Assembly (NCBI RefSeq): GCF_002930645.1
Contig: NZ_PSNW01000001.1
Location: forward strand, 550,600-614,599
Direction: 5' to 3'
Length of the DNA: 64,000 bases
From: Solimonas fluminis
GTDB taxonomy: Bacteria > Pseudomonadota > Gammaproteobacteria > Nevskiales > Nevskiaceae
The translations under genes and the position numbers were made by a program. Below, one piece after another: positions 11,155 through 47,120 of this stretch (its first letter is position 1; the number at the start of each line of letters is the position of its first letter). The notes under the pieces were generated by a model that saw only the letters and a program-made list of their open reading frames with translations, made no database searches and had not been told where the DNA came from.

Positions 11155-12381
11155 ATGAGCACTTCGAAGCCAAAGCTTGCGGTGGTCGGCAACGGCATGG
11201 CGGGCATGCGCACCGTCGAGGAGCTGCTGAAGCTCGCTCCCGATCTCTACGACATCACCGTGTTCGGTGCCGAGCCGCACGGCAACTACAACCGCATCCT
11301 GCTGTCCCCCGTCCTCGCCGGTGAAAAGACCGTCGACGACATCATGCTGAACACGCGCGAGTGGTACGCCAAGAACGGCATCACCCTGCATGCCGGCGAC
11401 CCGGTGGTGAAGATCGACCGCCCGCGCCGCACCCTGTACTCGAAGTCGGGCGTGGAACTGCCGTACGATCGCCTGCTGCTGGCCACCGGCTCCAAGCCCT
11501 TCATCATTCCGGTGCCGGGCCACCAGCTGCCGGGCGTGATTGCGTTCCGCGACATCCAGGACGTGGAAACCATGCTGGAAGCGGCCCGCAACCACCGGCA
11601 TGCGGTGGTGATCGGCGGCGGCCTGCTGGGCCTGGAGGCCGCCAACGGCCTGCTGCGCCAGGGCATGGACGTGACCGTGGTTCACGTCATGGACAGCCTG
11701 ATGGAGCGCCAGCTCGACAAGCCGGCCGCGGCCCTGCTGAAGACCTCGCTGGAGCGCAAGGGCCTGCGCATCATGCTCAATGCCAATACCGCGGAGATCG
11801 TCGGCCCCGACCGCGTCACCGCGCTGCGCTTCAAGGACGGCAGCGAGATTCCGGCCGACCTGGTGGTGATGACCGCCGGCGTGCGCCCCAACATCGATCT
11901 CGCCAGGAGCGCCGGCCTGCAGTGCGACCGCGCGATCATGGTGGATGACACCCTCCAGACCTTCGACCCGCGCATCTACGCCGTGGGCGAATGCGTACAG
12001 CATCGCAAGGCCCTGTTCGGCCTGGTGGCACCGATCTGGGACCAGGCGCGCGTCTGCGCCACCCACCTCGCCGGCTTCGGCCACTCGCGCTACGTGCAGC
12101 AGGCCACCGCCACCAAGCTCAAGGTCACCGGCGTGGACCTCTACTCGGCCGGCGATTTCATCGGCAACGCCGACAGCGAGGACTTGGTGATGCGCGATCC
12201 GCGCCGCGGGGTCTACAAGCGCCTCGTGCTGAAGGACAACCGCGTGATCGGCGCCGTGCTGTACGGCGACGTCAAGGACGGCCCCTGGTACTTCGAGCTG
12301 ATCCAGAACAAGACCGACATCGCCAGCCTGCGCAGCCGCCTGCTCTTCGGACAGGCCTACTGCGAACCGCGCGCCGCCTAG
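11155..12381 (+). CDS. nasB: NirB-like FAD oxidoreductase, electron donor to nitrate reductase
   Basis: A 408-residue pyridine nucleotide-disulfide oxidoreductase with an FAD motif VVGNGMAGMRT (about 10-20) and an NAD(P) motif VVIGGGLLGLE (about 150). It aligns with the N-terminal half of NirB but ends before any [2Fe-2S] domain. It sits 13 bp before nasA, and NasA here carries its own C-terminal BFD-like domain. The most likely role is to pass electrons from NAD(P)H to NasA. The symbol follows that role and is inferred from context. Confidence 0.75.
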   Translation: MSTSKPKLAVVGNGMAGMRTVEELLKLAPDLYDITVFGAEPHGNYNRILLSPVLAGEKTVDDIMLNTREWYAKNGITLHAGDPVVKIDRPRRTLYSKSGVELPYDRLLLATGSKPFIIPVPGHQLPGVIAFRDIQDVETMLEAARNHRHAVVIGGGLLGLEAANGLLRQGMDVTVVHVMDSLMERQLDKPAAALLKTSLERKGLRIMLNANTAEIVGPDRVTALRFKDGSEIPADLVVMTAGVRPNIDLARSAGLQCDRAIMVDDTLQTFDPRIYAVGECVQHRKALFGLVAPIWDQARVCATHLAGFGHSRYVQQATATKLKVTGVDLYSAGDFIGNADSEDLVMRDPRRGVYKRLVLKDNRVIGAVLYGDVKDGPWYFELIQNKTDIASLRSRLLFGQAYCEPRAA

Positions 12382-12394
12382 AACGACCCAAGAC

Positions 12395-15082
12395 GTGACC
12401 TTGCCCGCCCCCCTTTCCGCCGCCGCCACCACCTTCACCACCTGCCCGTACTGCGGCGTGGGCTGCGGGGTGAAGGCCAGCACCCGCCCGGACGGCCAAC
12501 TCGACGTCGCCGGCGACGAGGGCCATGGCTCCAACTACGGCAAGCTCTGCGTGAAGGGCTCGGCGCTCGGGGAGACGGTGGACCTGCACGGCCGCCTGCT
12601 CTACCCGAAGGTGGACGGGCAGCGCGTCAGCTGGGATGCCGCGCTGGATCGCGTGGCCGGCGGCCTGCGGCGCATCATCGACCAGCATGGCCCCGACGCG
12701 GTGGCGCTGTACGTCTCCGGGCAGTTGCTGACCGAGGACTACTACGTCGCCAACAAGCTGATGAAGGGCTATGTCGGCACCGCCAACATCGACACCAACT
12801 CCCGCCTGTGCATGTCCTCCGCCGTGGCCGGGCACAAGCGTGCCTTCGGCGAGGACCTGGTGCCGGTCTGCTACGAGGACCTGGAGCAGTCCGACCTCGT
12901 CGTGCTGGTGGGCTCCAACACCGCCTGGTGCCATCCGATCATCTTCCAGCGCATCGCCAAGGCCAAGGAAGCACGGCCGGAGATGAAGCTGGTGGTGATC
13001 GACCCGCGCCGCACCGCCACCTGCGAGCTGGCCGACCTGCACCTGCCGGTCAAGGCCGGCACCGATGTCTGGCTGTTCAACGGCCTGCTGTCCTTCCTGC
13101 ACCAGCATGGGGTGATGGACACCGGCTTCGTCGAGCGGCATACCGCCGACCTGGCGCGCACCATGGCCATCGCCGACAACACCGCCGGCGACGTGCGCTC
13201 CGTGGCGCGCGCCTGCAGGATCGGGGAGGCCGACCTGCTGGAGTTCTACCGGCTGTTCGCCCGAACCGAGAAGGTCATCACCGCGTTCTCGCAGGGCGTC
13301 AACCAGTCCTCCGCGGGTACCGACAAGGTCAACAGCATCATCAACTGCCACCTGCTGACCGGCCGCATCGGCCGGCCCGGCATGGGCCCCTTCTCGATCA
13401 CCGGCCAGCCCAATGCCATGGGCGGCCGAGAGGTCGGCGGCCTGGCCAACATGCTGGCCGCGCACATGGAGCTGGGCAACGCCCGGCACCGCGACATCGT
13501 CCAGGAGTTCTGGGACTCGCCTCGCATCGCCGACAAGCCGGGCCTCAAGGCGGTGGACCTGTTCAAGGCGATCGAGGAAGGCAAGGTCAAGGCCGTGTGG
13601 ATCATGGCGACCAATCCGGTGGTCAGCCTGCCGGACGCCGACCAGGTCAAGCGCGCGCTGGAGAAGTGCGAGTTGGTGATCAGTTCCGACATCATCGAAA
13701 AGACCGACACCAACGGCTTCGCCCATGTGCTGCTGCCGGCGCTGGGCTGGGGCGAGAAGGACGGCACCGTCACCAATTCCGAACGCCGCATCTCGCGCCA
13801 GCGCCGGTTCCTGGCCGCGCCCGGCGAAGCCCGCGCGGACTGGGACATCATCTGCGACGTGGCCCGGCGCATGGGCTACTCCGGTTTCGGCTTCGAGGAT
13901 GTCCATGCCGTGTTCGACGAGCATGCCCGCCTGTCCGCGTACCGCAACGAGGGCAGCCGCTGCTTCGACCTCGGCGGGCTCGTCGGGCTGGGCGCCGCGG
14001 GATTCGACGCGCTGGCACCGGTGCAATGGCCGGTGACCGCCTCCGGCGGCACCGCCCGGCTGTTCGAGGACGGGCGCTACTTCCATGCCGACGGCAAGGC
14101 CCGTTTCGTGCCGACTCCGGTGCGCGCGCCGGCCCATGCGCCGGACGAGCAGTATCCGCTGATCCTCAACACCGGCCGCGTGCGCGACCAGTGGCACACC
14201 ATGACCCGCACCGGCAAGTCGCCGAAGCTGGCCGACCACATCCCGGAACCCTTCGTGGACATGCACCCGCAGGACGCGCTGCTGTCCGGCGTCCGTGCCG
14301 GGGAGCTGGCCCGCGTCGCCACCCGCTGGGGCTCGCTGGTGGCGCGCGTGCAGCACGGCGGCGGCATCCCGCGCGGCAACGTCTTCGTGCCGATCCACTG
14401 GAACGGCCAGTTCGCCTCCGATGCCCGCGTCGGCAGCCTGGTGAACCCGATCGTGGACCCCATCTCCGGCGAGCCGGAGTTCAAGCACACGCCGGTGCGC
14501 GTGGAGGAATTCCGCGTGCTCTGGCACGGCTTCGTGCTATCGCGCCACGAACTGGCGATGGAGAACACCACCTGGTGGACGCGCATCCAGGGACGCCAGT
14601 TCCTGCGCTACGAAATCGCCGGCCGCGACAAGTCGCTGGACCGCAGCCCCTGGGCGCGCAGCCTGTTCGGTGCCGAGGGCCCGGAAGCGGACTGGATCGA
14701 GTACGAGGACCGCAGCGCCGGCGTCTACCGCGCCGCACTGGTGGTGGAGGACCGCATCGAATGCTGCGTATTCATTTCGCCGCGCCCCGACCTGCCCTCG
14801 CGCGCCTGGCTGGCCAGCCTGTTCGTGAAGGAGCAGCTGGAGGAGATCGACCGCGTCGGCCTGCTGGTGGGCGAGCCGCTGGAAAAGGGCGCGGATACCG
14901 GCCCCACCGTCTGCTCCTGCTTCGGCGTGGGCCGCAACACGATCTGCGCGGCGATCCGCGACAAGAACCTCAAGACCCCTGCCGAGATCACCGGCTGCCT
15001 CAAGGCCGGCGGCAACTGCGGCTCCTGCGTGCCGGAGCTCAAGAAACTGCTGGCGGAAGTCCGCGCGACAGAAGCGGCTTGA
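12395..15082 (+). CDS. nasA: Assimilatory nitrate reductase, catalytic subunit, with C-terminal BFD-like domain
   Basis: An 895-residue molybdopterin oxidoreductase that reduces nitrate to nitrite in the cytoplasm. The N-terminal [4Fe-4S] ligands are Cys17, Cys20, Cys24 and Cys52 (CPYCGVGC and KLCVKG). The bis-MGD binding and catalytic regions follow, including the molydopterin-binding C-terminal barrel (INTGRVRDQWHTMTRTGK). The last about 55 residues form a BFD-like [2Fe-2S] domain (CSCFGVGRNTICAAI and CGSCVPELK). There is no Tat signal, which fits an assimilatory enzyme. The start is GTG, 13 bp after nasB. No ATG is available near the N-terminus. Confidence 0.92.
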   Translation: MTLPAPLSAAATTFTTCPYCGVGCGVKASTRPDGQLDVAGDEGHGSNYGKLCVKGSALGETVDLHGRLLYPKVDGQRVSWDAALDRVAGGLRRIIDQHGPDAVALYVSGQLLTEDYYVANKLMKGYVGTANIDTNSRLCMSSAVAGHKRAFGEDLVPVCYEDLEQSDLVVLVGSNTAWCHPIIFQRIAKAKEARPEMKLVVIDPRRTATCELADLHLPVKAGTDVWLFNGLLSFLHQHGVMDTGFVERHTADLARTMAIADNTAGDVRSVARACRIGEADLLEFYRLFARTEKVITAFSQGVNQSSAGTDKVNSIINCHLLTGRIGRPGMGPFSITGQPNAMGGREVGGLANMLAAHMELGNARHRDIVQEFWDSPRIADKPGLKAVDLFKAIEEGKVKAVWIMATNPVVSLPDADQVKRALEKCELVISSDIIEKTDTNGFAHVLLPALGWGEKDGTVTNSERRISRQRRFLAAPGEARADWDIICDVARRMGYSGFGFEDVHAVFDEHARLSAYRNEGSRCFDLGGLVGLGAAGFDALAPVQWPVTASGGTARLFEDGRYFHADGKARFVPTPVRAPAHAPDEQYPLILNTGRVRDQWHTMTRTGKSPKLADHIPEPFVDMHPQDALLSGVRAGELARVATRWGSLVARVQHGGGIPRGNVFVPIHWNGQFASDARVGSLVNPIVDPISGEPEFKHTPVRVEEFRVLWHGFVLSRHELAMENTTWWTRIQGRQFLRYEIAGRDKSLDRSPWARSLFGAEGPEADWIEYEDRSAGVYRAALVVEDRIECCVFISPRPDLPSRAWLASLFVKEQLEEIDRVGLLVGEPLEKGADTGPTVCSCFGVGRNTICAAIRDKNLKTPAEITGCLKAGGNCGSCVPELKKLLAEVRATEAA

Positions 15083-35812: not shown

Positions 35813-36409
35813 ATGTCGCTGAAGAACGCCATCCTCGTGCTGCTCGAGGGCAAGCCCGGCACCGGCTACGATCTTGCCCAGCGCTTCCGCGGCGGCATCG
35901 GCCAGTTCTGGTCCGCCTCCCACCAGCAGATCTACCAGGAGCTGAAAGCCCTGGGCCAGGATGGCCTGGTGGAGTTCGAGTTGCAGGAGCAGGCCTCCCG
36001 GCCCGACCGCAAGCACTACCGCATCACCGCCGAGGGCCGCGCGGCGCTGAAGGCCTGGCTGGAGGGTCCCTGGAAGCCCGAGCGGATCAGCAGTGCGATC
36101 CTCCTGCGGCTGTATGCGGCGAACCTGGCGGACTCCGCCCCCGTGCTGGAGGAACTGGACCGGAATCTGGCGCAGTTCCGCGACAAGCTGGCGGAATACC
36201 TGCAGCAGGAGTCCTCGCACCTTGCCCGCAGCGGCCGCTCCAGCCTGCGGCAGGCACTGGTCTACGTCTCGCTGCGCTTCGGCATCCGCAACCTGCAGAG
36301 CTGGATCATGCTGCTGGCCGAGGTGCGGGCCCTGCTCACGCAGGGGCGGGTACCGGAGCGGCCCGCACTGGACGAGCTGGGGCCCGCCGGCGGCGCGGGC
36401 AGGCCCTAG
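35813..36409 (+). CDS. PadR-family transcriptional regulator
   Basis: A 198-residue protein with an N-terminal winged helix (about 1-80, ILVLLEGKPGTGYDLAQRF, then a recognition helix around SHQQIYQELKAL). A longer C-terminal helical domain (about 90-180) resembles the VirR/AphA-like PadR subtype. It should repress itself and the divergent NMO gene through the two palindromes between them. The inducer is unknown. The ATG at 35813 was preferred because an earlier one lies across operator 2. Confidence 0.82.
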   Translation: MSLKNAILVLLEGKPGTGYDLAQRFRGGIGQFWSASHQQIYQELKALGQDGLVEFELQEQASRPDRKHYRITAEGRAALKAWLEGPWKPERISSAILLRLYAANLADSAPVLEELDRNLAQFRDKLAEYLQQESSHLARSGRSSLRQALVYVSLRFGIRNLQSWIMLLAEVRALLTQGRVPERPALDELGPAGGAGRP

Positions 36410-38520
36410 GACGCAATCAGCTCGTCGAAGGGCCGCGCCACCGAGATCGCATGGCCCTGTACCCAGTCCACGCCGATGCCGCGCAGGGCTTCGACCAGGC
36501 TGTGGTCCTCGACATGCTCGGCAATGGTCTTCAGCCCCATGTCATGACCGATGCGGTTGATGGCTTCGACCATGCCGCGGTCGAGGCGGTTGGCCTGCAT
36601 GGACCGCACGAAGCTGCCGTCGATCTTGATGTAGTGCACCGGCAGGTTGCGCAGGTACGAGAACGACGCCATGCCCGAGCCGAAGTCGTCCAGGGCGAAG
36701 CGGCAGCCCAGCCCGGCCAGGCGCTCGATGAAGGCGCGCGCCTCGCTGAGGTGCGAGATCGCCGCGGTCTCGGTGATCTCGAAGCAGAGTTGCTCGGGCC
36801 TGACGCCCGACTCGTGGATCCGCTCCACGACGTAGTCCAGGAAGCGGCGGTCGCCCAGCGACAGGCCGGAGATATTGATGGCGTAGATGACCTCGTCATG
36901 GCGCCAGGCGATGCCTTCCAGCGCCGCGTTGACCACCCAGCGATCCAGGGCGCTCATCATGTAGTAGCGCTCGGCGGCGGCGATGAACTCCGCCGGCGGC
37001 TGAATCTCGCCGCGGTCGCCGCGAATGCGCAGCAGCAGTTCGCGGTATACCACCTCGCCCAGGGCATCGCTGCGCACCACGTCCTCGTAGTAGAGGCTGA
37101 ACTGGTTGTGGTCCAGGGCGCGGTTGATGCGCGCCACCATGCTCATCTGGTTGTAGCGCCGCGCGGCCTCGTCGTTGTCTTCCGCCAGGCGCACGCGGTT
37201 GCGGCCGTCCTCCTTGGCGGCGTGGCAGGCGGCATCGGCCAGCGACAACGCACGGGAGCTGTCGGGCGTGCGCGCATTGATCGTCACGGCGCCCATGCTG
37301 GCCGTGGTGACGAAGCTCTGGCCTTCCCAGACGAAGCGGTTGTTGCGGGCGGCCTCGAGCAGCCCCTCCAGCAGCGGCATGCCCTCGGACACCCTGATGT
37401 CTTCCAGCAGCACGCCGAACTCGTCGCCACCCAGGCGCGCCAGCGCATCCTCGGGGCGCAGCGAGGCGCGGAATACCCCGGCGATCTGCCGCAGCATCTC
37501 ATCGCCGGCAAAATGGCCATGCACGTCGTTGACCACCTTGAACTGGTCCAGGTCGATGTAGCACAGCAGGTGTTCGTCGCCGCCGTTGCGTGAGCGCGCC
37601 AGCGCCAGGTTGACGCGGCGCTCGAACTCGTCGCGGTTCAGCAGGCCGGTAATGGGATCGTGCGTGCTGCGGTAAGCCAACTCCTCCGACAGCAGGCTCA
37701 TGCGCGTGTAGTCCTCGAACACCACGACCGCGCCGCTGATGCCGCCATCGGCGCGCAGCAGGGCCCCTGCCGAACAGCGCAGGTTGAGGCGGCGCCCGTC
37801 GCGGGTCAGCGATTGGTGCTCCGAGGAGATTCGCGCGGCACCGCCCTGCAGGCAGAGGCGCACGGGATTGCGCGAGGGGGCGTCGGGCGGGGACAGCAGC
37901 CGGAGCACACGCTCGTGCGACTGCCCCAGCGCACGCGCGCGAGGCCAGCCGGTGAGCTCTTCCGCCCGCTCGTTCATCCCGACGACCAGGCCATGCTCGT
38001 CGGTCTCGATCACGCCTTCGCGCATCAGGGCCAGTCCGATGGCACTGTAGCCGGCTTGTCCGCCGCCCGTCGCGGCCAGGGTCGACTCGCCGCGCCGCTC
38101 GTGCAGTTCCGCCACGATGCAGCCGGCATCGGGCGCCGGCCGCGTCAGGACCAGCCGGTGCGGCCGCGTCAGGGATCCCAGTTGCAGGCGCACGTCCAGT
38201 TCGCTGCGGCTGTCCACCTGCAGCGTGGAGGCCGCCAGGATCGGGTCGCGGTCGCTGAAGTCGAACAACTCCTCCAGCTTGCGCCCCTGTGGCGGCAGTT
38301 CAGGCACGCCCAGCAGGGCCGACATGGCATCGTTGACGCAAAGAATGCGGCGATCGGTATCCAGCAGGGCGGCCGGCAGGGCCGACAGGCGAAAGGCCGA
38401 CAGGAAGAAGGAACCCAGGCGCTCGGAGTAGCTGCCTGCGCCGCCCGCCAGCCGCAGTTCCCCCCGGTCACCGGCAGCGGCGGCCCGGACGAAGGCAGGG
38501 TTTCGGCTATGGGGCGGCAT
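36406..38520 (-). CDS. PAS-GGDEF-EAL cyclic-di-GMP signalling protein
   Basis: A 704-residue protein without clear membrane segments. Two PAS-like regions (about 40-110 and 165-290) precede a GGDEF domain (about 300-455) with an intact LGGDEFG motif, so diguanylate cyclase activity is possible. The EAL domain (about 460-704) reads ELLLRI in place of EALLR but keeps the key residues of ITETAAI, DDFGSG, KIDGSFV and AEHVE, so phosphodiesterase activity cannot be excluded. Either activity, or both, may be used. A GTG start ten codons upstream (38550) is possible, and no start has a strong ribosome-binding site. The stop overlaps the padR 3' end by 4 bp on the opposite strand. Confidence 0.82.
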   Translation of the reverse strand: MPPHSRNPAFVRAAAAGDRGELRLAGGAGSYSERLGSFFLSAFRLSALPAALLDTDRRILCVNDAMSALLGVPELPPQGRKLEELFDFSDRDPILAASTLQVDSRSELDVRLQLGSLTRPHRLVLTRPAPDAGCIVAELHERRGESTLAATGGGQAGYSAIGLALMREGVIETDEHGLVVGMNERAEELTGWPRARALGQSHERVLRLLSPPDAPSRNPVRLCLQGGAARISSEHQSLTRDGRRLNLRCSAGALLRADGGISGAVVVFEDYTRMSLLSEELAYRSTHDPITGLLNRDEFERRVNLALARSRNGGDEHLLCYIDLDQFKVVNDVHGHFAGDEMLRQIAGVFRASLRPEDALARLGGDEFGVLLEDIRVSEGMPLLEGLLEAARNNRFVWEGQSFVTTASMGAVTINARTPDSSRALSLADAACHAAKEDGRNRVRLAEDNDEAARRYNQMSMVARINRALDHNQFSLYYEDVVRSDALGEVVYRELLLRIRGDRGEIQPPAEFIAAAERYYMMSALDRWVVNAALEGIAWRHDEVIYAINISGLSLGDRRFLDYVVERIHESGVRPEQLCFEITETAAISHLSEARAFIERLAGLGCRFALDDFGSGMASFSYLRNLPVHYIKIDGSFVRSMQANRLDRGMVEAINRIGHDMGLKTIAEHVEDHSLVEALRGIGVDWVQGHAISVARPFDELIAS

Positions 38521-38601
38521 GGAACGGGGCGCGGGACTCCTGCAGGTCACAGGAGGATAGCTCAGTACGACGATGGACGGGCGCCCGAACCGGGGCCGCC
38601 G

Positions 38602-39345
38602 TCACAACCGCGGCAGAGATTCGGCCAGGACCGCGCGCACCCGGCCCATGCCGGTCTCGATGGACTGGTGGATTTCCGCGTGGATGTCCCCCAAACCCAT
38701 GACGCCGGCGGCCCAGTTGACCGATACCGCCAGGCAGGCGTAGTCCAGCTTCAGTTCGCGCGCCAGCGCCGCCTCGGGCATGCCGGTCATGCCGACCATG
38801 TCGCAGCCGTCACGCTGCATGCGGCGGATCTCCGCGGAGGACTCCAGCCGCGGCCCCTGGGTGACGCCATGGATGCCGGCGCCCATCGCGACGCCGGCCC
38901 GGCCGGCGGCCTCGATGAGGGCTTGGCGCAGGCGCTCCGAGTAGGGCTCCGTGAATTCGACATGCTCCAGGCCCGAACCCTCGCGCCCGTCGGAGTAGGT
39001 GTGCTCGCGGCCCCAGGTGTAGTCGACGATGTCCTGCGGCACCGCCACGGCGCCCGGCTCGAACCAGGGCGCGATGGCGCCCACCGCCGCGATGGCGACG
39101 ATGCTCTGCACCCCGGCCTCGCGCAGGGCCCAGAGGTTGGCGCGGTAGTTGATGGCATGCGGCGGCAGCTTGTGGCCCTCGCCATGGCGCGCCAGGAAGA
39201 TCGCGCGGGTACCGTAGACCCGGCCCTCCAGCAGCGGCGCGCTGGGCGCGCCGTAGGGCGTGGTCAGCTCGATGCGGCGCTCGATTTCCAGGCCCGGCCA
39301 CTGGTTCATGCCGGTACCGCCGATCACGGCGATCTTCGTCGTCAT
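38602..39345 (-). CDS. mtiP: S-methyl-5'-thioinosine phosphorylase / MTA phosphorylase family
   Basis: A 247-residue trimeric-type purine nucleoside phosphorylase. It begins KIAVIGGTGMNQ and carries LARHGEGHKLPPH (phosphate and ribose binding), a QGPRLESSAEIRRM segment and a GMTGMPEAALARE segment. It splits methylthio-nucleosides arising from polyamine synthesis. In Pseudomonas the homologue next to nagZ prefers methylthioinosine, and the same neighbourhood is seen here. It starts directly after the hpt stop. Confidence 0.8.
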   Translation of the reverse strand: MTTKIAVIGGTGMNQWPGLEIERRIELTTPYGAPSAPLLEGRVYGTRAIFLARHGEGHKLPPHAINYRANLWALREAGVQSIVAIAAVGAIAPWFEPGAVAVPQDIVDYTWGREHTYSDGREGSGLEHVEFTEPYSERLRQALIEAAGRAGVAMGAGIHGVTQGPRLESSAEIRRMQRDGCDMVGMTGMPEAALARELKLDYACLAVSVNWAAGVMGLGDIHAEIHQSIETGMGRVRAVLAESLPRL

Positions 39346-39903
39346 TTACATGCCTCGCACAGCATAGATGGCGGGCAGCTGCCGCCAGTATTCCTTGTAG
39401 TCCATGCCGCAGCCGAAGACATAGCGGTCCACCAGCTGCAGGCCGATGAACTCGGCGTGCGCTTCGGGCGCGCGCCGATCATGGATCTTCTCCGCCAGCA
39501 CCGCCACCTTGAGGCTGGCCGGCCGGAACTCCGCCAGCGCCTTGCGGATGGCGACCAGCGTGTGGCCTTCGTCGAGGATGTCGTCGATCACCAGCACGTG
39601 GCGGCCCTTGAGCTCGCGGTCCGGCTGGCGCTTCCACAGCAGCCCCCCGCCGGCGGTGGCGCCGCGGTAGCGGGTGGCATGGAGGTAGTCGATCTCGAAG
39701 GCGAAATCGAGACGCTGGGTGATCTCCGAGGTGGCGTGCAGGCCGCCGATCATCACGCACAGGATCAGCGGATTCCTGCCGATGTACTCCTCGCGGATGC
39801 GCTCGGCCAGACGGTCATAGGCCAGGCGAACGGCTGCCGCGTCGTGCAGGCAGTCGGCCTCGGCGAGGACCTGGTTGGCGTGCTCGGCAGCGGCGTCGCT
39901 CAC
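39346..39903 (-). CDS. hpt: Hypoxanthine-guanine phosphoribosyltransferase
   Basis: A 185-residue type I phosphoribosyltransferase with the PRPP-binding motif VLVIDDILDEGHTL (about 100-113). It uses hypoxanthine or guanine, and hypoxanthine is released by the neighbouring methylthioinosine phosphorylase, so the two form a salvage pair. Its start overlaps the nagZ stop by 4 bp. Confidence 0.87.
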   Translation of the reverse strand: MSDAAAEHANQVLAEADCLHDAAAVRLAYDRLAERIREEYIGRNPLILCVMIGGLHATSEITQRLDFAFEIDYLHATRYRGATAGGGLLWKRQPDRELKGRHVLVIDDILDEGHTLVAIRKALAEFRPASLKVAVLAEKIHDRRAPEAHAEFIGLQLVDRYVFGCGMDYKEYWRQLPAIYAVRGM

Positions 39904-40883
39904 TTCGGCTCCTTGCGGTAGAGCTTCTTCAGGCGGTCGCTGCCGGCCTTGGAGGGCTTCACGTCCTTCAGGGCATCCAGCAGGGCAACGGCGGCGGCGC
40001 GGTCATTGCAGACCGGCAGCATGTCGCAGCCGGCCGCCAGCGCCAGGCGCGCGCGTTCCTCCATGCTGCCGACGGCGGCGGCTCCGTTCATCGACAGGTC
40101 GTCGCAGAACAGGGCGCCATCGAAGCCCAGTTCCTTGCGCAGGATGGTTTCGATCCACTTGACCGACAGCGAGGCCGGCGTCTGGTCGACGGCCGGGTAG
40201 CGGATGTGCGCCATCATCAGCGACTCCACACCCTCGTCGATGAGGCGCCTGAAGGGCACCAGGTCGGTCGCGCGGATTTCCTCCTCGCTGCGGCGGTCCA
40301 CCGGCAGCTCCAGGTGCGAATCCGCCGCGACGGCGCCATGGCCGGGAAAGTGCTTGCCGGTGGCCGCCAGGCCCAGCTCGTTCAGGCCGCTGCGGAAGGC
40401 ACTGGCCAGGCGCACGATGGTCTCGGTGTCCTGCGAGAAGGCGCGGTCGCCGATGATCGTGCTGACCCCGCAATCACGGTCCAGCACCGGGGCGAAGCAC
40501 AGGTCGATGCCATAAGCCGAGAGCTCGCGGGCAATCGTCAACCCCTGCTCGCGCGCGTCCACGCAGGCGCGCTCGGCATCTTCGGTGAACAGCTTGCCGA
40601 GCGAACCCATCGCCGGGATGCGCGAGAAGCCCACGCGGAAACGCTGCACGCGCCCGCCTTCATGGTCCACTGCCAGCAGCAGGCGCGGCGACTTCTTGAT
40701 GGCGAGGATGTCGTCGCAGAGCGCCTTGAGCTGCTCCGGATCCCGGTAGTTGCGCGTGAACAGGATGACGCCGCCAACCAGCGGGTGCGACAGCACCTCG
40801 CGGTCTTCGGCAGTCAGTTCCTGGCCGGGCACGTCGAGCATCAGCGGGCCGATGAGGGCGGATTTCTTACTCGTGGATTTCAA
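39900..40883 (-). CDS. nagZ: Beta-N-acetylhexosaminidase NagZ
   Basis: A glycoside hydrolase family 3 enzyme of about 327 residues. The signature KHFPGHGAVAADSH holds the catalytic His, and the nucleophile Asp lies in FCDDLSMNGA. NagZ removes GlcNAc from anhydro-muropeptides in the cytoplasm during cell-wall recycling. The start is uncertain. TTG at 40883 gives an N-terminus close to the family, while ATG at 40931 would overlap the previous gene by 65 bp. Confidence 0.9.
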   Translation of the reverse strand: MKSTSKKSALIGPLMLDVPGQELTAEDREVLSHPLVGGVILFTRNYRDPEQLKALCDDILAIKKSPRLLLAVDHEGGRVQRFRVGFSRIPAMGSLGKLFTEDAERACVDAREQGLTIARELSAYGIDLCFAPVLDRDCGVSTIIGDRAFSQDTETIVRLASAFRSGLNELGLAATGKHFPGHGAVAADSHLELPVDRRSEEEIRATDLVPFRRLIDEGVESLMMAHIRYPAVDQTPASLSVKWIETILRKELGFDGALFCDDLSMNGAAAVGSMEERARLALAAGCDMLPVCNDRAAAVALLDALKDVKPSKAGSDRLKKLYRKEPK

Positions 40884-41343
40884 CTTCGGTACCTGCGGGA
40901 ACAAGATCGAACAGTTCGATGACGTCTTCATTGCGCATGCGCACGCAACCGTGCGAGCCGGGCTTGCCCAGCTCGGTCACCGGCGGCGTGCCATGCAGGT
41001 AGATGTAGCGGCGGAAGGTGTCGACGCAGCCCAGCCGGTTGCGGCCAGGCTCGCGGCCGCTGAGCCAGAGGATGCGGGTCAGCATCCAGTCGCGCTTGGG
41101 CTGGCGCTGGTGGCCTTCCGGGGTCCAGAACTCCCCGGTATGGCGGCGGGCCACGAAGACGGCATTGGCCGGCTTGCCGGCACCGATCTTGGCGCGCACG
41201 ACGTGACGGCCGCGCGGGGTGCAGCCGCTGCCCTGGATCTCGCCGGGACCGTTGGCGCCGGTGGAGACGGCGTATTCCTTCAGCAAGCGTCCGCCGTCGA
41301 GCAGCCGCAGGCGCTGGCGCGTCAGGTCAATGTCGATCTTCAT
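40867..41343 (-). CDS. YkuD-fold L,D-transpeptidase-like enzyme without signal peptide (ElsL/LdtK-like)
   Basis: A 158-residue YkuD domain with the catalytic motif HGTPPVTELGKPGSHGCVRM, whose last Cys is the nucleophile. It begins MKIDIDLTRQRLRLLDGG and has no signal peptide or lipobox, unlike periplasmic L,D-transpeptidases. Its start overlaps the CYTH stop by 17 bp and its end overlaps the nagZ start. The cytoplasmic YkuD protein ElsL of Acinetobacter acts as an L,D-carboxypeptidase that trims recycled muropeptides. The lack of export and the nagZ neighbour make that role likely here. This is inference. Confidence 0.75.
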   Translation of the reverse strand: MKIDIDLTRQRLRLLDGGRLLKEYAVSTGANGPGEIQGSGCTPRGRHVVRAKIGAGKPANAVFVARRHTGEFWTPEGHQRQPKRDWMLTRILWLSGREPGRNRLGCVDTFRRYIYLHGTPPVTELGKPGSHGCVRMRNEDVIELFDLVPAGTEVEIHE

Positions 41344-41812
41344 CGGGCCAGGTCCGCCAGGGATGCAGGGCAAGATGATGATTGTAGTAGCGCCGGTCCT
41401 CGGTCAACTCGCGGCCCAGCCAGGCGGGCCGCTCGAAGGGCTGGTCGATGCTGTCGAGTTCGATCTCCGCCACCACCAGGCCGGCGTTGTCGTTGATGAA
41501 CTCGTCGACCTCCCAGGTCAGGCCGTCGATCTCGATGTAGTGGCGCGTCTTCTCCAGGCGCCCGATGCAAAGGTTGTCCAGCATCTCGCGCGCCTGCGCG
41601 GCGGGGATATCGTATTCGTACTCGGCGCGGGCGGCACCCACCACGGCGGCCTTGATGTTGAGCTTGGCGTCCTCGCCTTCCAGGCGCACGCGCACCGAGG
41701 CCTTGCCGCCCTCGCCCGCCAGGTAGCCCTGGCGCATGGCCAGCGAGCGATTCACCTGGGCGCGCCAGGCATCGCTTACCACACGGAACTTGCGCTCGAT
41801 CTCCATCGCCAT
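41327..41812 (-). CDS. CYTH-domain triphosphatase
   Basis: A 161-residue CYTH/TTM-fold protein with the metal-binding ExExK motif near the start (MEIERKFRV). Later charged strands carry RVRLEG, KAAV and VDEF, the pattern of single-domain triphosphate tunnel enzymes. Small bacterial members hydrolyse inorganic triphosphate, and adenylate cyclase activity is less likely. The start is ATG 41812 or 41806, one base or seven bases after the rlmD stop. Confidence 0.78.
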   Translation of the reverse strand: MAMEIERKFRVVSDAWRAQVNRSLAMRQGYLAGEGGKASVRVRLEGEDAKLNIKAAVVGAARAEYEYDIPAAQAREMLDNLCIGRLEKTRHYIEIDGLTWEVDEFINDNAGLVVAEIELDSIDQPFERPAWLGRELTEDRRYYNHHLALHPWRTWPDEDRH

Positions 41813-41813
41813 T

Positions 41814-43133
41814 TCAGAGCTCGAAGAGGGCCATGCTCTCGACATGGCTGGTATGCGGGAACATGTCCATCACGCCGGCCCGGGTCAGGCGGTAGCCGTA
41901 CTCGTGCACCAGGGTGCCGGCATCGCGCGCGAGCGTGCCCGGGTGGCAGGATACGTAGACGATGCGCGAGGGCTTGCGGCCGGCCACCGCCGGCAGGATT
42001 TCCTTGGCGCCGGCACGCGGCGGATCCAGCAGCACCTTGTCGAAGGGCTGCTGCAGCCAGTCGACGCTCGCCTCGGTCCTGAACAGGTCGGCCTTCTCGA
42101 AGCGGATGCCGGTGATGCCGTTGCGCTCCGCGTTCTCGCGGGCGCGCTGCACCAGCTTGGCCTCGCCCTCGGCGGCGATCACGCGGGCACCGGCACGGGC
42201 CAGCGGCAGCGAGAAGTTGCCCAGGCCGCAGAACAGCTCCAGCACGCGCTCGCCCGGCTGGATCTCCAGCCAGTCGACGGCCTGGCGCACGGCCTGCTGG
42301 CTGATGCCGCCGTTGACCTGGATGAAGTCGGAGGGCTCGAAGCGCAGGCGCAGGTCGGACCCGTCGGGGGAGTACTCCAGCGGCGGCGCTGTGGGGTCCA
42401 GCGGCGTGATGGTGTCGGGGCCGCCGGACTGCAGGTAGACCTCGAAACCCTCGGCCTTGCCGAAGGCGGCGAGCTTCGCGCGGTCCTGTTCGGTCGGCGG
42501 CTGCAGCACGCGGAACACCAGGGCCACGTGCTCGCCGCAGGCCAGCTCGATCTGCGGCAGCTTGTCGGCGATGGAGAGCGTATCCATCACGCGGCCGATG
42601 TCGCGCAGCTTCAGGCCCACGCGCGGCTCCAGCACGGCGCAGGATTCCAGCATCGACATGAAATTGCTGTTGCGCTCCCGGAAGCCCACGCGCACGCCCC
42701 CCTTGGTCGGAAGGCGCTTGGCGCCCAGCCGTGCGCGGCGGCGATAACCCCAGACCGGCCCGCGGACCGGCGGCATCACCGCCTCCGGCATGACCTTGCC
42801 GATGCGCTGCAGCCCGTCGAGCATCTGCTTCTGCTTGAACTCGATCTGGCGGTCGGCGGCGAGATGCTGCATGGAACAGCCGCCGCAGGTGCCGAAGTGG
42901 GCGCAGCCCGGATCGACGCGGTCCGGCGAAGCGCGGTCCACGCGCGTCACCTGTCCCTCGTCGGCGTCGCGGGAGACCGCGGTGTAGCGGAACTGCACCA
43001 GCTCGCCCGGCAGGGCATCGGCGATGAAGGTGGCCTTGCCGTTGACGCGCGCGAAGCCGCGGCCTTCGTGGTCCAGGTCGATGATCTCGGCGGCGTGATC
43101 GCCGGCGGGGAGTTGCTTCTTGCGGTGTGCCAT
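41814..43133 (-). CDS. rlmD: 23S rRNA (uracil-C5)-methyltransferase RlmD
   Basis: A 439-residue SAM-dependent enzyme that makes m5U1939 in 23S rRNA. It has an N-terminal TRAM domain (about 8-65), a [4Fe-4S] site (CAHFGTCGGC plus a later ESC), the SAM motif LELFCGLGNFSLPLA (about 285-299) and the catalytic Cys in YVSCHPGTLARD. The start ATG at 43133 lies 5 bp after the exonuclease stop. Confidence 0.92.
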   Translation of the reverse strand: MAHRKKQLPAGDHAAEIIDLDHEGRGFARVNGKATFIADALPGELVQFRYTAVSRDADEGQVTRVDRASPDRVDPGCAHFGTCGGCSMQHLAADRQIEFKQKQMLDGLQRIGKVMPEAVMPPVRGPVWGYRRRARLGAKRLPTKGGVRVGFRERNSNFMSMLESCAVLEPRVGLKLRDIGRVMDTLSIADKLPQIELACGEHVALVFRVLQPPTEQDRAKLAAFGKAEGFEVYLQSGGPDTITPLDPTAPPLEYSPDGSDLRLRFEPSDFIQVNGGISQQAVRQAVDWLEIQPGERVLELFCGLGNFSLPLARAGARVIAAEGEAKLVQRARENAERNGITGIRFEKADLFRTEASVDWLQQPFDKVLLDPPRAGAKEILPAVAGRKPSRIVYVSCHPGTLARDAGTLVHEYGYRLTRAGVMDMFPHTSHVESMALFEL

Positions 43134-43138
43134 CAGAC

Positions 43139-43918
43139 TCAGCCCGGGCTCCAGGCTTCCAGGAATTCTTTCCAGTGTGCCGCGGGACTGGCGCGCAGGA
43201 ACTCGCGGACCTTCTCGATCTCCTGCGTCAGCCCCGGCTTGTCCAGCAGCCCGCGCATGAACTGGAAGCGCAGGTAGACCAGCCAGGTGTTGAGCACGTC
43301 GGTTTCGCAGTAGGCGCGGATGTCCGGCAGCTTGCCGGCACGGAAGGCGCCGAAGACCATCGACCCGTCCATGCCCAGCTTGCCGGGCAGGCCCAGCAGC
43401 AGGGCGATCTCGTGCAGCGGCGCATTCTGGCGGCCGGTGTACATCGCCAGCACGTCCATCAGGTCGGTATGGCGGAACTGATAGCGGCCGATGTAGTTGT
43501 CCCACTTCGCCTCGCGGTCGAAGTGCCCGGTATCCCAGTAGCGCGGCGCCTGCACGCCGTGGACCAGGGCCCGGTAGTGCAGCACCGGCAGGTCGAAGCC
43601 GCCGCCGTTCCAGGACACGATCACCGGCCGGTACTTTTCGATGCCGTCGAAGAAGCGCCGCACCAGTTCGGCCTCGTCGCTGGACTCCTCTCCCAGCGAC
43701 CAGCAGCGGAAACCCTCGCCCTGGCGCAGCGCCACCGAGATGGCGACGATGCGCTGCAGGTGCGCCGGCTGGAAGTCCGTGCCCTTGGCGGCCAGGCGCA
43801 GCGTACTCATGGCCGCGGCCACCTCGCCGTCGTTCATGCCCTCCAGGCCATGGATGCGGCGGCCGCCCTCGAGGTCAGGGACGGTTTCGATGTCGAAGAC
43901 CAGGACCGGGGGGGTCAT
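43139..43918 (-). CDS. Predicted 3'-5' exonuclease (PolB-type DnaQ fold)
   Basis: A 259-residue protein with the exonuclease motifs FDIETVPDLEGG (ExoI, Asp and Glu), SWNGGGFDLPVL (ExoII) and YCETDVLNTW (ExoIII, Asp). This matches the PF10108-type family annotated as predicted 3'-5' exonucleases related to the proofreading domain of family B polymerases. Its substrate (DNA or RNA) is unknown. It lies between cysM and rlmD, with small gaps on both sides. Confidence 0.78.
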   Translation of the reverse strand: MTPPVLVFDIETVPDLEGGRRIHGLEGMNDGEVAAAMSTLRLAAKGTDFQPAHLQRIVAISVALRQGEGFRCWSLGEESSDEAELVRRFFDGIEKYRPVIVSWNGGGFDLPVLHYRALVHGVQAPRYWDTGHFDREAKWDNYIGRYQFRHTDLMDVLAMYTGRQNAPLHEIALLLGLPGKLGMDGSMVFGAFRAGKLPDIRAYCETDVLNTWLVYLRFQFMRGLLDKPGLTQEIEKVREFLRASPAAHWKEFLEAWSPG

Positions 43919-43934
43919 GGGGACACCCGCGCGG

Positions 43935-44825
43935 TCAAGACGGAAACACGCCGGTGGAGATGTAGCGGTCGCCTCGGTCGCAGACGATGCTGACGACCAC
44001 GGCATTCTCGACCTCGCGGCAGATCTGCAGGGCGGCCCACAGGGCGCCGCCGCTGCTGGGGCCGCAGAACAGTCCTTCGAGGCGCCCCATGTCGCGCATG
44101 GTGTCCTCCGCATTGGCCGCGCTGACCTCGATCACCCGGTCCACGCGGCTGCGGTCGAAGATCGTCGGCAGGTAGGCCTCGGGCCACTTGCGGATGCCGG
44201 GGATGGAACTCTCGCCGTCGGGCTGCACCCCGATCACCTGGATCGCCGGGTTCTTCTCCTTGAAGAAGCGCGAGCAGCCCATGATGGTGCCGGTGGTGCC
44301 CATCGACGAAACGAAGTGCGTGATGCGCCCGCCGGTGGCCTGCCAGATTTCCGGTGCCGTGCCCTCGTAGTGCGCGCGCGGGTTGTCCGGGTTGCCGAAC
44401 TGGTCCAGCACCTTGCCCTTGCCGGCCGCCTGCATCTCCAGCGCCAGGTCGCGGGCGCCTTCCATGCCCTGCTGCTGGGTCACCAGGATCAGCTCGGCCC
44501 CGAAGGCCTTCATGACGGCCCGGCGCTCCACCGACAGGTGCTCCGGCATGATCAGCACCATGCGGTAGCCCTTCACCGCCGCCGCCATCGCCAGGGCGAT
44601 GCCGGTATTGCCGGAGGTGGCCTCGATCAGGGTGTCGCCGGGCTTGATCTCGCCGCGCTCCTCGGCGCGCCGGATCATCGAATACGCCGGGCGGTCCTTG
44701 ACCGAGCCGGCCGGGTTGTTGCCCTCCAGCTTCACCAGCAAGGTATTGTTGCCGGTACCGGGCATGCGCCGGAGCTGGGCAAGCGGGGTATTGCCGATAA
44801 AATCGGCGAGCGAGGGGAAGTTCAT
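43935..44825 (-). CDS. cysM: Cysteine synthase B
   Basis: A 296-residue PLP enzyme. The lysine that binds PLP lies in NPAGSVKDRPA, the substrate loop is EATSGNTGIALA, and the Ser of CGPSSGGA binds the PLP ring nitrogen. It joins O-acetylserine with sulfide or thiosulfate. It is divergent from the GacS/BarA-type kinase (31 bp between start codons), as in Pseudomonas-like genomes. Confidence 0.92.
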   Translation of the reverse strand: MNFPSLADFIGNTPLAQLRRMPGTGNNTLLVKLEGNNPAGSVKDRPAYSMIRRAEERGEIKPGDTLIEATSGNTGIALAMAAAVKGYRMVLIMPEHLSVERRAVMKAFGAELILVTQQQGMEGARDLALEMQAAGKGKVLDQFGNPDNPRAHYEGTAPEIWQATGGRITHFVSSMGTTGTIMGCSRFFKEKNPAIQVIGVQPDGESSIPGIRKWPEAYLPTIFDRSRVDRVIEVSAANAEDTMRDMGRLEGLFCGPSSGGALWAALQICREVENAVVVSIVCDRGDRYISTGVFPS

Positions 44826-44855
44826 GGCGTCTATTCTAACCGCTGGGTCGACTGG

Positions 44856-47120
44856 ATGAGGCTGCAGGCCCTGTGGCAGCAGCGTGTGGCCGGCTGGCCC
44901 TGGCTCCTGGCCCCGGGCGGGCTGGTCTGGGGCGCGGGATTCCTGCTGATCCGGGAGTCCCCGGTGGCGATAGCCCTCTGGCTGGGCCTGGGCGTCATCG
45001 GCCTGGCCCTGGCCCTGATCGCCAACCGCCGGCTGGGCCAGGCCCAGCGGGGCCAGCTGGACGTGCTGAAGCAGCTGGCCGCCGGCCGGGTGGAAACCCG
45101 CGCCGCCGCCGACCTGCCCGGCCTGTCGGGCGAACTGAGCCTGCAGATCAACCAGACCGGCCGCCTGCTGGCCCAGTACCGCGACCAGCTCGACCAGCAG
45201 GTCGGCCAGGCCACTACCCGCCTGCGCCAGGACCTGCAGCGGGTCCACGAGAAAAGCGAACTGCTGCGCCGCTCGCTGGCCGACAGCCAGGACTCCGCCC
45301 GGGCCCAGTCGGAGCTGTTCTCCAACCTGTCGCACGAGCTGCGCACCCCGCTGACCGCGATCCTGGGCTATGCCGACCTGCTGCGCCGCTCTGGCCTCAA
45401 CGAGGAGCAGCGCCAGCAGCTCAACACCCTGGACAAGTCGGCGCGCGCGCTGCTGTCCATGATCAACGACCTGCTGGACTGGAGCCGCATCGAGGCCGGC
45501 CACCTGCGCCTGAACGAGGAGAACTTCGACCTTCAGGACACGGTGGAGGACACCACCGCCCTGCTGGCGCCGCTGGCCTACGAGAAGGTGCTGGAGCTGG
45601 TGCAGATCGTCTACCACGACGTGCCACAGAAGCTCGTGGGCGACGGCCCGCGCCTGCGTCAGATCCTGACCAACCTGATCTCCAACGCCATCAAGTTCAC
45701 CGAGAACGGCGAGGTGGTGCTGCGCGTGATGCGCGAGAAGGAGGAAGGCGAGCGGCTATGGCTGCGCTTTGCGATCTCCGACACCGGCGTGGGCATCGCT
45801 CCCGAGCAGCAGCGGCGCCTGTTCCAGCCCTTCCACCAAGTGGGCCGCAGCACGCGCGGCGGCAGCGGCCTGGGCCTGTCGATCACGCGCCGCCTGGCCG
45901 AACTGATGGGTGGCCGCGTGGAGCTGGAAAGCACCCCGGGCAAGGGCTCCATCTTCAGCGCCGTGCTGCCCTTCCGCGGCACCGCCGAGAAGCCGGCGCC
46001 GCAGCCCCTGCAGGAGAAATCCGCCTGGCTGCACGAGGCCCACCCCATCGCCCGCCTGGCACTGACGCACTGGCTGGAGTTCTGGGGCATGCAGGTGCGC
46101 GCCTTCGACTCCGTGGAACGACTCAACGAGGCCCTGCTGCATTCCACGCGCCTGCCCGACGTCGCCATCGCCGGTCTCAAGGAGATCGAGGCCGACGAGC
46201 AATCGGTGATGGAGCTTTGCGGCCTCTGCCGGCAGCACCGCCCGCCGTTGCTGATCCTGGTGGCCTCCGCCTCGCTGGACGTGCACCAGACCGTGCGCGA
46301 TGCCGGTGCCGCTGCCTGCCACGCCAAGTCGATCGGCCGGCGCCTGCTGCAGACCGAGCTGCTGCGCCTGATCTCGCCGCCGGAGGACAAGCAGGAACGG
46401 CCCTTGTCCGACAAGCTTGCCCTGGTAGCCGACAACAATCCGGTCAACCGCCGCTACATCGCCGCGCTCTGCACCGGCCTGGGCCTGGAGGTGGTGGAAG
46501 CCAACGACGGCCGCGAGGCGCTGACGCTGTGGCGCCGCAGCCCGGGAGACTACCTGCTGCTGGATGCGCACATGCCGGAGATGGACGGCCCGGCCTGCGC
46601 GCGCGAGGTGCGCAAGCTGGAAGCGGAGGGCAAGGCCGCCACGCGCAGCCGCATCCTGGCGATCAGCGCCTACCTGGAGCCGCACGAGCGCCGCGACTTC
46701 CTGGAAGCCGGTGCCGACGAGATCCTGCTCAAGCCCTTCGACGAGCGCCAGCTGCTGCGCGCCCTGGTCCCGGCCACGACCGCCGCCAGCGCGCCGGTCT
46801 CGACGATGCTGACCGAGGACCCGGACCTGCTGGCCCTGCTGCGCGAGGAACTGCCGCACCAGTTCGCCGCCCTGGAAACCGCCTGCGCCGTCAACGACCT
46901 GGACCTGGCGCGGGAGTCCGCCCACACGGTGCACGGCACCGCCGCCTTCTACCACCTCACCAGCCTGCGCCAGAGCACCGCCGCCCTGGAGCATAGCCTC
47001 AAGCGCGTCCAGGCCATCGCCGGCGATGCGCAAATCGCGGAGCAGCTGCATGCCGTGCGCACAGCGGTGGCGGAGACGCTGACGGCGATCGCGCGAAAGA
47101 GCGTGGCGACGAGGACGTGA
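44856..47120 (+). CDS. barA: Hybrid sensor histidine kinase of the GacS/BarA type
   Basis: A 754-residue tripartite kinase. Two membrane segments (about 14-32 and 36-56) leave only about four residues outside, so the periplasmic sensing domain of GacS is missing. A HAMP-like linker is followed by the H-box SNLSHELRTPL (His160), the ATPase with N, G1 and G2 boxes to about 385, a degenerate receiver (about 388-505), a true receiver (about 520-640, Asp570 in LLLDAHMPEMDG) and an HPt domain with AHTVHGTA (His690). It should phosphorylate a GacA/UvrY regulator located elsewhere. Assignment rests on domain order and the cysM-rlmD neighbourhood. Confidence 0.83.
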   Translation: MRLQALWQQRVAGWPWLLAPGGLVWGAGFLLIRESPVAIALWLGLGVIGLALALIANRRLGQAQRGQLDVLKQLAAGRVETRAAADLPGLSGELSLQINQTGRLLAQYRDQLDQQVGQATTRLRQDLQRVHEKSELLRRSLADSQDSARAQSELFSNLSHELRTPLTAILGYADLLRRSGLNEEQRQQLNTLDKSARALLSMINDLLDWSRIEAGHLRLNEENFDLQDTVEDTTALLAPLAYEKVLELVQIVYHDVPQKLVGDGPRLRQILTNLISNAIKFTENGEVVLRVMREKEEGERLWLRFAISDTGVGIAPEQQRRLFQPFHQVGRSTRGGSGLGLSITRRLAELMGGRVELESTPGKGSIFSAVLPFRGTAEKPAPQPLQEKSAWLHEAHPIARLALTHWLEFWGMQVRAFDSVERLNEALLHSTRLPDVAIAGLKEIEADEQSVMELCGLCRQHRPPLLILVASASLDVHQTVRDAGAAACHAKSIGRRLLQTELLRLISPPEDKQERPLSDKLALVADNNPVNRRYIAALCTGLGLEVVEANDGREALTLWRRSPGDYLLLDAHMPEMDGPACAREVRKLEAEGKAATRSRILAISAYLEPHERRDFLEAGADEILLKPFDERQLLRALVPATTAASAPVSTMLTEDPDLLALLREELPHQFAALETACAVNDLDLARESAHTVHGTAAFYHLTSLRQSTAALEHSLKRVQAIAGDAQIAEQLHAVRTAVAETLTAIARKSVATRT

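Follow-up and report, generated by a model that had tools for sequence, protein, structure and literature searches.

Dai et al. 2021 defined a class of cytoplasmic YkuD-domain enzymes around the L,D-carboxypeptidase ElsL (LdtK) of Acinetobacter baumannii, which is described there as active in vitro on tetrapeptides and not on pentapeptides, with its cysteine being required (PMC8649774). The same account gives 788 predicted cytoplasmic ElsL orthologs, of which 624 are from Gammaproteobacteria, with Betaproteobacteria also represented, and finds them in all but 5 of the 21 orders of Gammaproteobacteria, which leaves 16 with orthologs. Simpson et al. 2021 described ElsL as cytoplasmic and as interchangeable with LdcA of Escherichia coli, and stated that many organisms with an ElsL homolog have neither LdcA nor LdcV (PMC8630537); the substitution of LdcA for ElsL is also described in PMC8649774. 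Similarly, the activity, localisation and tetrapeptide preference of ElsL are reported as confirmed in PMC9239154. The replacement of LdcA by an ElsL-type enzyme outside Acinetobacter is not a new idea, and since the class has been described in these accounts (PMC8649774, PMC8630537), the protein considered here is regarded as a further member of it. This protein is encoded by an elsL-type YkuD gene in a stretch of 64,000 nucleotides from Solimonas fluminis (contig NZ_PSNW01000001.1, positions 550,600 to 614,599), which is referred to as a whole as the window.

No report of an elsL-nagZ operon, of recycling in Solimonas or of an elsL-linked ATP-binding cassette (ABC) importer was named among the papers listed from the open-licence PubMed Central (PMC) literature, and the words neighbor, synteny, transporter, gene cluster and NagZ are absent from the main text of PMC8649774.

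An ElsL-type gene in Solimonas fluminis

Judged from its sequence and genomic setting, the gene is predicted, with a probability of roughly 0.88, to encode a cytoplasmic L,D-carboxypeptidase of the ElsL type that acts in peptidoglycan recycling. The best match of the protein among the NCBIfam models is the ElsL model NF040925 (176.8 bits, E = 2.8 × 10−52), which spans residues 12–166 of a 168-residue form and leads the next model (E = 1.6 × 10−7) by about 45 orders of magnitude. YkuD (PF03734) is the sole Pfam family found at E ≤ 0.001 (95.5 bits, cut-off 23.4), and the catalytic motif that the original prediction held to be intact is indeed present, as His117 and Ser130-His131-Gly132-Cys133. 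His117, Ser130, Gly132 and Cys133 are unchanged across all 27 aligned sequences, among which residue 131 is variable, and are retained throughout a panel of 80 elsL loci, one per family, that were hand-picked from the strongest ElsL places listed, except for some places near contig starts; families whose ElsL is only weak or unlisted are absent from this panel, and several of its stretches are truncated by contig ends. The closest relatives of the protein are from Solimonas (97% and 96% identity in loci L006 and L007), followed by proteins of other genera that we take to be Nevskiales.

The open reading frame starts at an ATG, an alternative TTG at 41373 adding 10 residues to give the 168-residue form. 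Upstream of Met1 the frame is closed by a stop 20 codons away, which is followed by PRTGATTIIILPCIPGGPGP, and no signal peptide or other leader is apparent from any start in this closed frame (judged by eye, not with SignalP), nor does the open frame contain the long hydrophobic core of a transmembrane helix (judged by reading). A signal peptide overlooked at another start is ruled out by the closed upstream frame, and the earlier claim that the protein lacks an export signal is borne out.

The class was delimited here as by Dai et al. 2021 (PMC8649774), that is, as YkuD proteins with a catalytic histidine and the cysteine of an S-x-G-C motif, without a leader, of 105–200 amino acids, without a peptidoglycan-binding domain and with kinship to ElsL. 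The Solimonas protein has the domain and both catalytic residues, shows neither a signal peptide nor a transmembrane helix by reading rather than by the published predictors, is 158 amino acids long with a single Pfam family, and is related to ElsL by its NF040925 match (E = 2.8 × 10−52), a profile match and not the published BLASTp comparison. It falls outside the LdcA class, which is characterized by an S66 domain, as its only Pfam family is YkuD, and outside the exported L,D-transpeptidases, which carry a signal peptide or a membrane anchor, as its frame is closed shortly upstream. An AlphaFold2 model (mean predicted local distance difference test score, pLDDT, 87.4) superimposes on Bacillus subtilis YkuD (1y7m) with a Z-score of 16.6 over 109 residues and a root-mean-square deviation of 1.6, so that the protein as modelled has the YkuD fold; ElsL appears by name in none of the six distinct PDB sequences matched at E ≤ 0.001.

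The genome, a 4.67-Mb draft in 34 contigs that is listed as 100% complete, encodes the other parts of a recycling pathway. AmpG (525.2 bits, cut-off 350) and Mpl (655.7 bits, cut-off 388.7) are present, as is an Amidase_2 protein (117.8 bits, AmpD proper not being distinguished), and NagZ is encoded inside the window. Peptidase_S66, the family of LdcA, has no match in this genome, and neither does VanY (PF02557), which we take to be the family of LdcV. S66 is likewise missing from all 37 searched genomes of the family, namely this one and 36 others, 4 of the 37 being less than 90% complete, which argues against an assembly gap; it is found in 7 of the 24 other genomes searched from the order, all of one genus. 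A hidden LdcA or VanY-type enzyme was rejected as a candidate on these grounds. The expectation that the genome lacks ldcA was therefore correct, and the proposal that an ElsL/LdtK-like L,D-carboxypeptidase replaces LdcA in another group gains support from the NF040925 match, the lack of S66 and VanY and the presence of AmpG and Mpl.

In the proposed scheme, AmpG would bring in anhydro-muropeptides, from which NagZ would strip N-acetylglucosamine and an AmpD-type amidase would release the peptide. Cys133 of the ElsL-type enzyme, aided by His117, would then cut the terminal D-alanine from the meso-diaminopimelate of tetrapeptides, yielding tripeptides that Mpl would ligate back onto UDP-N-acetylmuramic acid (UDP-MurNAc). 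Without this enzyme, Mpl would be expected to produce UDP-MurNAc-tetrapeptide, which would be unusable as a donor for D,D-transpeptidases; AmpG and Mpl without an L,D-carboxypeptidase are reported to lead to tetrapeptides in the precursors, with harmful effects in the species studied (PMC8649774, PMC8630537, PMC9790009). As AmpG and Mpl in the absence of S66 and VanY leave a gap at the trimming step, the ElsL-type protein would fill it, standing in for LdcA in the Solimonas genome. The activity, substrate and localisation of the Solimonas protein are assigned by analogy with A. baumannii ElsL. If this assignment is correct, the trimming step of wall recycling is closed for Solimonas and its family by a known and recently described class of enzymes.

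ElsL, S66 and VanY across the Gammaproteobacteria

Class-wide figures for the exchange of ElsL and LdcA, which are new numbers, were obtained from 276 genomes of at least 90% completeness drawn evenly from the class, with matches to NF040925 at E < 10−30 being considered strong. A match to the ElsL model at E ≤ 0.001 is found in 238 genomes (206 strong, one intermediate in G230, and 31 weak), S66 exceeds its cut-off in 27 (29 at E ≤ 0.001) and VanY in 42 (51 at E ≤ 0.001). Strong ElsL is present in only 2 of the 27 genomes with S66, compared with 204 of the 249 without (Fisher p = 7 × 10−15, in counts that ignore ancestry), 25 genomes having S66 without strong ElsL and 45 having neither. When counted by family, strong ElsL is found in 3 of 18 families with S66 and in 121 of 140 without (p = 2.8 × 10−9). 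In family f3, G153 carries both ElsL and S66 and G247 only S66, and in family f49, G170 carries only ElsL and G047 and G259 only S66. As regards VanY, strong ElsL is present in 18 of 42 genomes with VanY over its cut-off and in 188 of 234 without (p = 1.6 × 10−6).

Several observations weigh against the assignment of the Solimonas gene to an L,D-carboxypeptidase that takes the place of LdcA. The NF040925 score of 176.8 bits lies below the curated cut-off of 270 of this model, which is of the type "exception". None of the 276 genomes of the class exceeds this cut-off, indicating that it is narrower than the class, and consequently the curated name is not claimed for the protein, only membership in the wider ElsL class. 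In the structure model, blocks 31–40 and 101–110 are poorly predicted (mean pLDDT 59 and 51), and the whole-chain Foldseek TM-score to 1y7m is only 0.56. G043 and G153 each carry strong ElsL together with S66, and 18 of the 42 VanY genomes also carry strong ElsL, showing that the exclusivity is not absolute; 27 of the 276 genomes are without strong ElsL, S66 and VanY altogether, and the genome counts are uncorrected for ancestry.

The 27 genomes without any of the three classes include three of 0.3–0.4 Mb that also lack any Mpl match (G016, G150 and G245), and others of 1.7–2.4 Mb that keep Mpl (such as G014, G063 and G204). The retention of Mpl in the latter suggests that a further class of L,D-carboxypeptidases may exist.

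The linkage of elsL to nagZ bears on what the enzyme acts upon. In the 80-locus panel, 48 loci have nagZ at a distance of up to about 4.5 kb from elsL, all but one of them (47) with nagZ downstream on the same strand, and in 23 of the 80 the two genes share a strand and are no more than 300 bp apart; by our estimate, the chance of finding a given gene in a 9.4-kb stretch of a 3-Mb genome is well under 1%. A cytoplasmic YkuD enzyme might instead have a different main substrate, for instance by trimming or swapping D-amino acids on UDP-MurNAc-peptides, and thus serve precursor quality control rather than recycling, a role with which the very wide spread of ElsL-type genes (206 of 276 genomes) would be compatible. 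This is improbable, however, as the recurrent linkage to nagZ and the near-exclusion with S66 both point to recycling, and as the toxicity of elsL loss in A. baumannii is reported to be bypassed when muropeptide recycling is prevented (PMC8649774). Still less credence is given to the notion that the protein is a periplasmic L,D-transpeptidase that is exported by an unrecognised route and introduces 3-3 crosslinks or links proteins to the wall. The fold and catalytic motif are indeed those of L,D-transpeptidases, and an early proposal for A. baumannii LdtK, as related in PMC8630537, was that it links outer-membrane proteins to peptidoglycan; yet the open frame is without a leader, the ElsL model is a far better fit than those of the transpeptidases, and four further YkuD matches of the genome, which lie in longer open frames (336–558 codons) and of which a motif scan made for comparison recovered one, might serve the periplasm. 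It is very unlikely that the gene is carried along as a dispensable passenger or a redundant paralogue while another, unrelated L,D-carboxypeptidase performs the recycling step: a sequence search is blind to an enzyme class as yet unknown, and the 27 genomes with none of the three classes leave room for one, but the four active-site residues are kept in all 80 panel loci, the place between the CYTH gene and nagZ is kept in all 19 loci from L006 to L024, and S66 occurs in none of the 37 family genomes. An ElsL-type L,D-carboxypeptidase of recycling thus remains the reading that accounts best for the Solimonas gene.

Gene neighbourhood and elsL-linked transporter genes

The window holds a run of genes on the same strand in the order rlmD, CYTH, elsL, nagZ, hpt, mtiP (Table 1).

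Table 1. Genes around the elsL-type gene, with positions in the window.
Feature	Position	Strand	Remarks
rlmD, 23S rRNA (uracil-1939-C5)-methyltransferase	41814..43133	minus	NF009639, 539.5 bits (cut-off 458); upstream end of gene run
CYTH-domain protein	41327..41845	minus	172 aa; PF01928, 62.2 bits
elsL-type YkuD gene	40867..41343	minus	158 aa; predicted cytoplasmic L,D-carboxypeptidase; catalytic Cys133, His117
nagZ, beta-N-acetylhexosaminidase	39900..40841	minus	NF003740, 424.7 bits (cut-off 207); conservative start 40841, longer open reading frame from 40931
hpt, hypoxanthine-guanine phosphoribosyltransferase	39346..39903	minus	NF006605, 240.4 bits (cut-off 181)
mtiP, S-methyl-5'-thioinosine phosphorylase	38602..39345	minus	NF006599, 334.1 bits (cut-off 223)

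The end of the CYTH gene overlaps the start of elsL by 17 bp, and this overlap is firmer than the one between elsL and nagZ that the original prediction had described. The latter depends on the nagZ start: it amounts to 65 bp from the ATG at 40931 and to 17 bp from the TTG at 40883, and gives way to a gap of 25 bp if nagZ starts at the ATG at 40841, which encodes the M of a GPLMLDV stretch. The term "peptidoglycan recycling operon" that had been applied to this locus is too strong, as elsL and nagZ belong to recycling and the neighbours rlmD, CYTH, hpt and mtiP do not. A promoter scan gave a single sigma-70-like match 5' of elsL (41407–41378, minus strand, 9 of 12 bases), which was not used, and no structured RNA with a match to Rfam at gathering scores was found in positions 36000–46000 of the window. 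Just past mtiP, a large open reading frame (36406–38550, minus strand) resembles, by eye, a PAS-GGDEF-EAL regulator.

The order CYTH-elsL-nagZ is found in each of the 19 loci L006–L024. The loci of Pseudomonas, Stutzerimonas or Azotobacter have a nagZ match after elsL but no CYTH gene, and the four loci from Betaproteobacteria (L034, L039, L042 and L080) have no nagZ match in the stretches covered, those of L039 and L080 extending less than 1 kb beyond elsL. In 29 of the 80 family loci, elsL is preceded on its own strand by a stand-alone CYTH gene, either directly or with a gene for a solute-binding protein (SBP) in between.

In 32 of the 80 panel loci, same-strand transporter genes flank elsL, encoding an SBP (centred at most 2.5 kb upstream) and/or permeases (at most 4 kb downstream), and both are present in 22. 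Where the cluster is complete, its order is SBP-elsL-permease-permease-nagZ. One example of each was scanned, revealing SBP_bac_5 and BPD_transp_1 domains, respectively, and nearest NCBIfam models in the dipeptide/oligopeptide/nickel transporter group, the single scanned elsL-linked SBP being closest to the DppA, Opp4A and GsiB models without reaching the cut-off of any of them. Among 12 wider loci of about 19 kb, five (L193, L195, L199, L202 and L203) show the full order rlmD-CYTH-SBP-elsL-permease-permease-nagZ-hpt-mtiP, with other genes interspersed in places, and the Solimonas window corresponds to this order minus the three transporter genes. In these 12 loci, a motif scan (reporting frames on the elsL strand) revealed no same-strand ABC-ATPase-like frame closer than 8 kb to elsL, and only two had such a frame, at 8–9 kb; the transporter would therefore need ATPases encoded elsewhere.

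The presence of these transporter genes is associated with the absence of AmpG, which was read from the lack of an entry in the list of AmpG matches. No AmpG match is found in 17 of the 32 genomes with an SBP or permease beside elsL, compared with 4 of the remaining 48 (p = 1.4 × 10−5), 15 of the 32 having both the transporter genes and an AmpG match. The same trend is seen when an SBP and a permease are both required (12 of 22 versus 9 of 58, p = 0.0011) or when AmpG matches weaker than E = 10−100 are scored as absent (20 of 32 versus 10 of 48, p = 3 × 10−4). Whether nagZ is close to elsL shows no association with missing AmpG (p = 1.0, 80 loci). Mpl is matched strongly (E of about 7 × 10−159 or better) in each of the 12 genomes that combine an SBP and a permease with the lack of an AmpG match, and 11 of them have nagZ in the elsL stretch, such that they still appear to recycle. 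In one genome, at locus L189 (G200:C112), the ElsL match (11508–11963) is followed after about 0.4 kb by an AmpG match (12391–13860) on the same strand, another link of elsL to recycling.

Controls for ancestry had few usable comparisons. A tree of 81 ElsL proteins had a star on 1 of 78 inner branches and gave one usable pair. A first Mpl tree (56 of the 80 genomes) was discarded for the very long branches of L138, L152 and L182, which were attributed to Mpl in the wrong frame; it had given three usable pairs (mean 1.9 for and 0.2 against, p = 0.5). When the tree was repeated with Mpl joined to ElsL for 56 of the 80 genomes and the score decided on the strand, one pair was left on starred branches. 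Greedy pairing that drew on every branch of the best Mpl and ElsL tree, mostly branches without strong support, resulted in 3 pairs for, 0 against and 5 ties (p = 0.25), or in 4 for, 1 against and 3 ties with AmpG scored by cut-off (p = 0.375); for SBP and permease together, it gave 1 for, 0 against and 9 ties, or 2 for, 1 against and 7 ties. With so few pairs and p-values of 0.25–0.375, the association of the cluster with missing AmpG (p = 1.4 × 10−5) is therefore not shown to be independent of ancestry.

It is conceivable, if on balance somewhat doubtful, that much of the Gammaproteobacteria possesses an undescribed import-and-trim cluster consisting of a family 5 SBP, elsL, two permeases of the Opp/Dpp type and nagZ. 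Muropeptides or murein peptides would be taken up by its transporter, in many cases in place of AmpG, and would be processed on entry by ElsL and NagZ; the Solimonas window would be a reduced form that is without the transporter genes and relies on AmpG. Alternatively, the transporter could be a general peptide importer that merely shares the elsL locus, or it could import free murein peptides and not whole muropeptides. If the cluster functions in the proposed way, it would explain the uptake of wall fragments in Gammaproteobacteria that have NagZ and Mpl but no AmpG.

Comparison with known systems

The closest described counterpart of the Solimonas protein is ElsL (LdtK) of A. baumannii, which likewise consists of one YkuD domain, some 160 residues long and without a leader, has a catalytic cysteine and is encoded in a genome that is reported to be without LdcA but with AmpG and Mpl (PMC8649774, PMC8630537). 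The Solimonas protein differs in belonging to another group and in scoring below the curated cut-off; its gene lies between a CYTH gene and nagZ. LdcA of E. coli shares the predicted reaction and the place in the pathway, but is a serine peptidase of another family (S66), and LdcV of Vibrio cholerae shares the predicted reaction, but is described as a zinc-dependent LAS-type metalloenzyme of another superfamily (PMC8649774). B. subtilis YkuD and the exported L,D-transpeptidases have the same fold and the same H-G...S-x-G-C active site; unlike the exported enzymes, the Solimonas protein has neither a leader nor any additional Pfam domain, for instance one that binds the wall. For the elsL-flanking SBP and permeases, which occur outside the window, a precedent is provided by YejBEF-YepA of Agrobacterium, a peptide ABC transporter that is described as replacing AmpG (PMC9790009); YepA is reported in that source to be exclusive to Alphaproteobacteria, whereas the elsL-linked SBPs are from Gammaproteobacteria.
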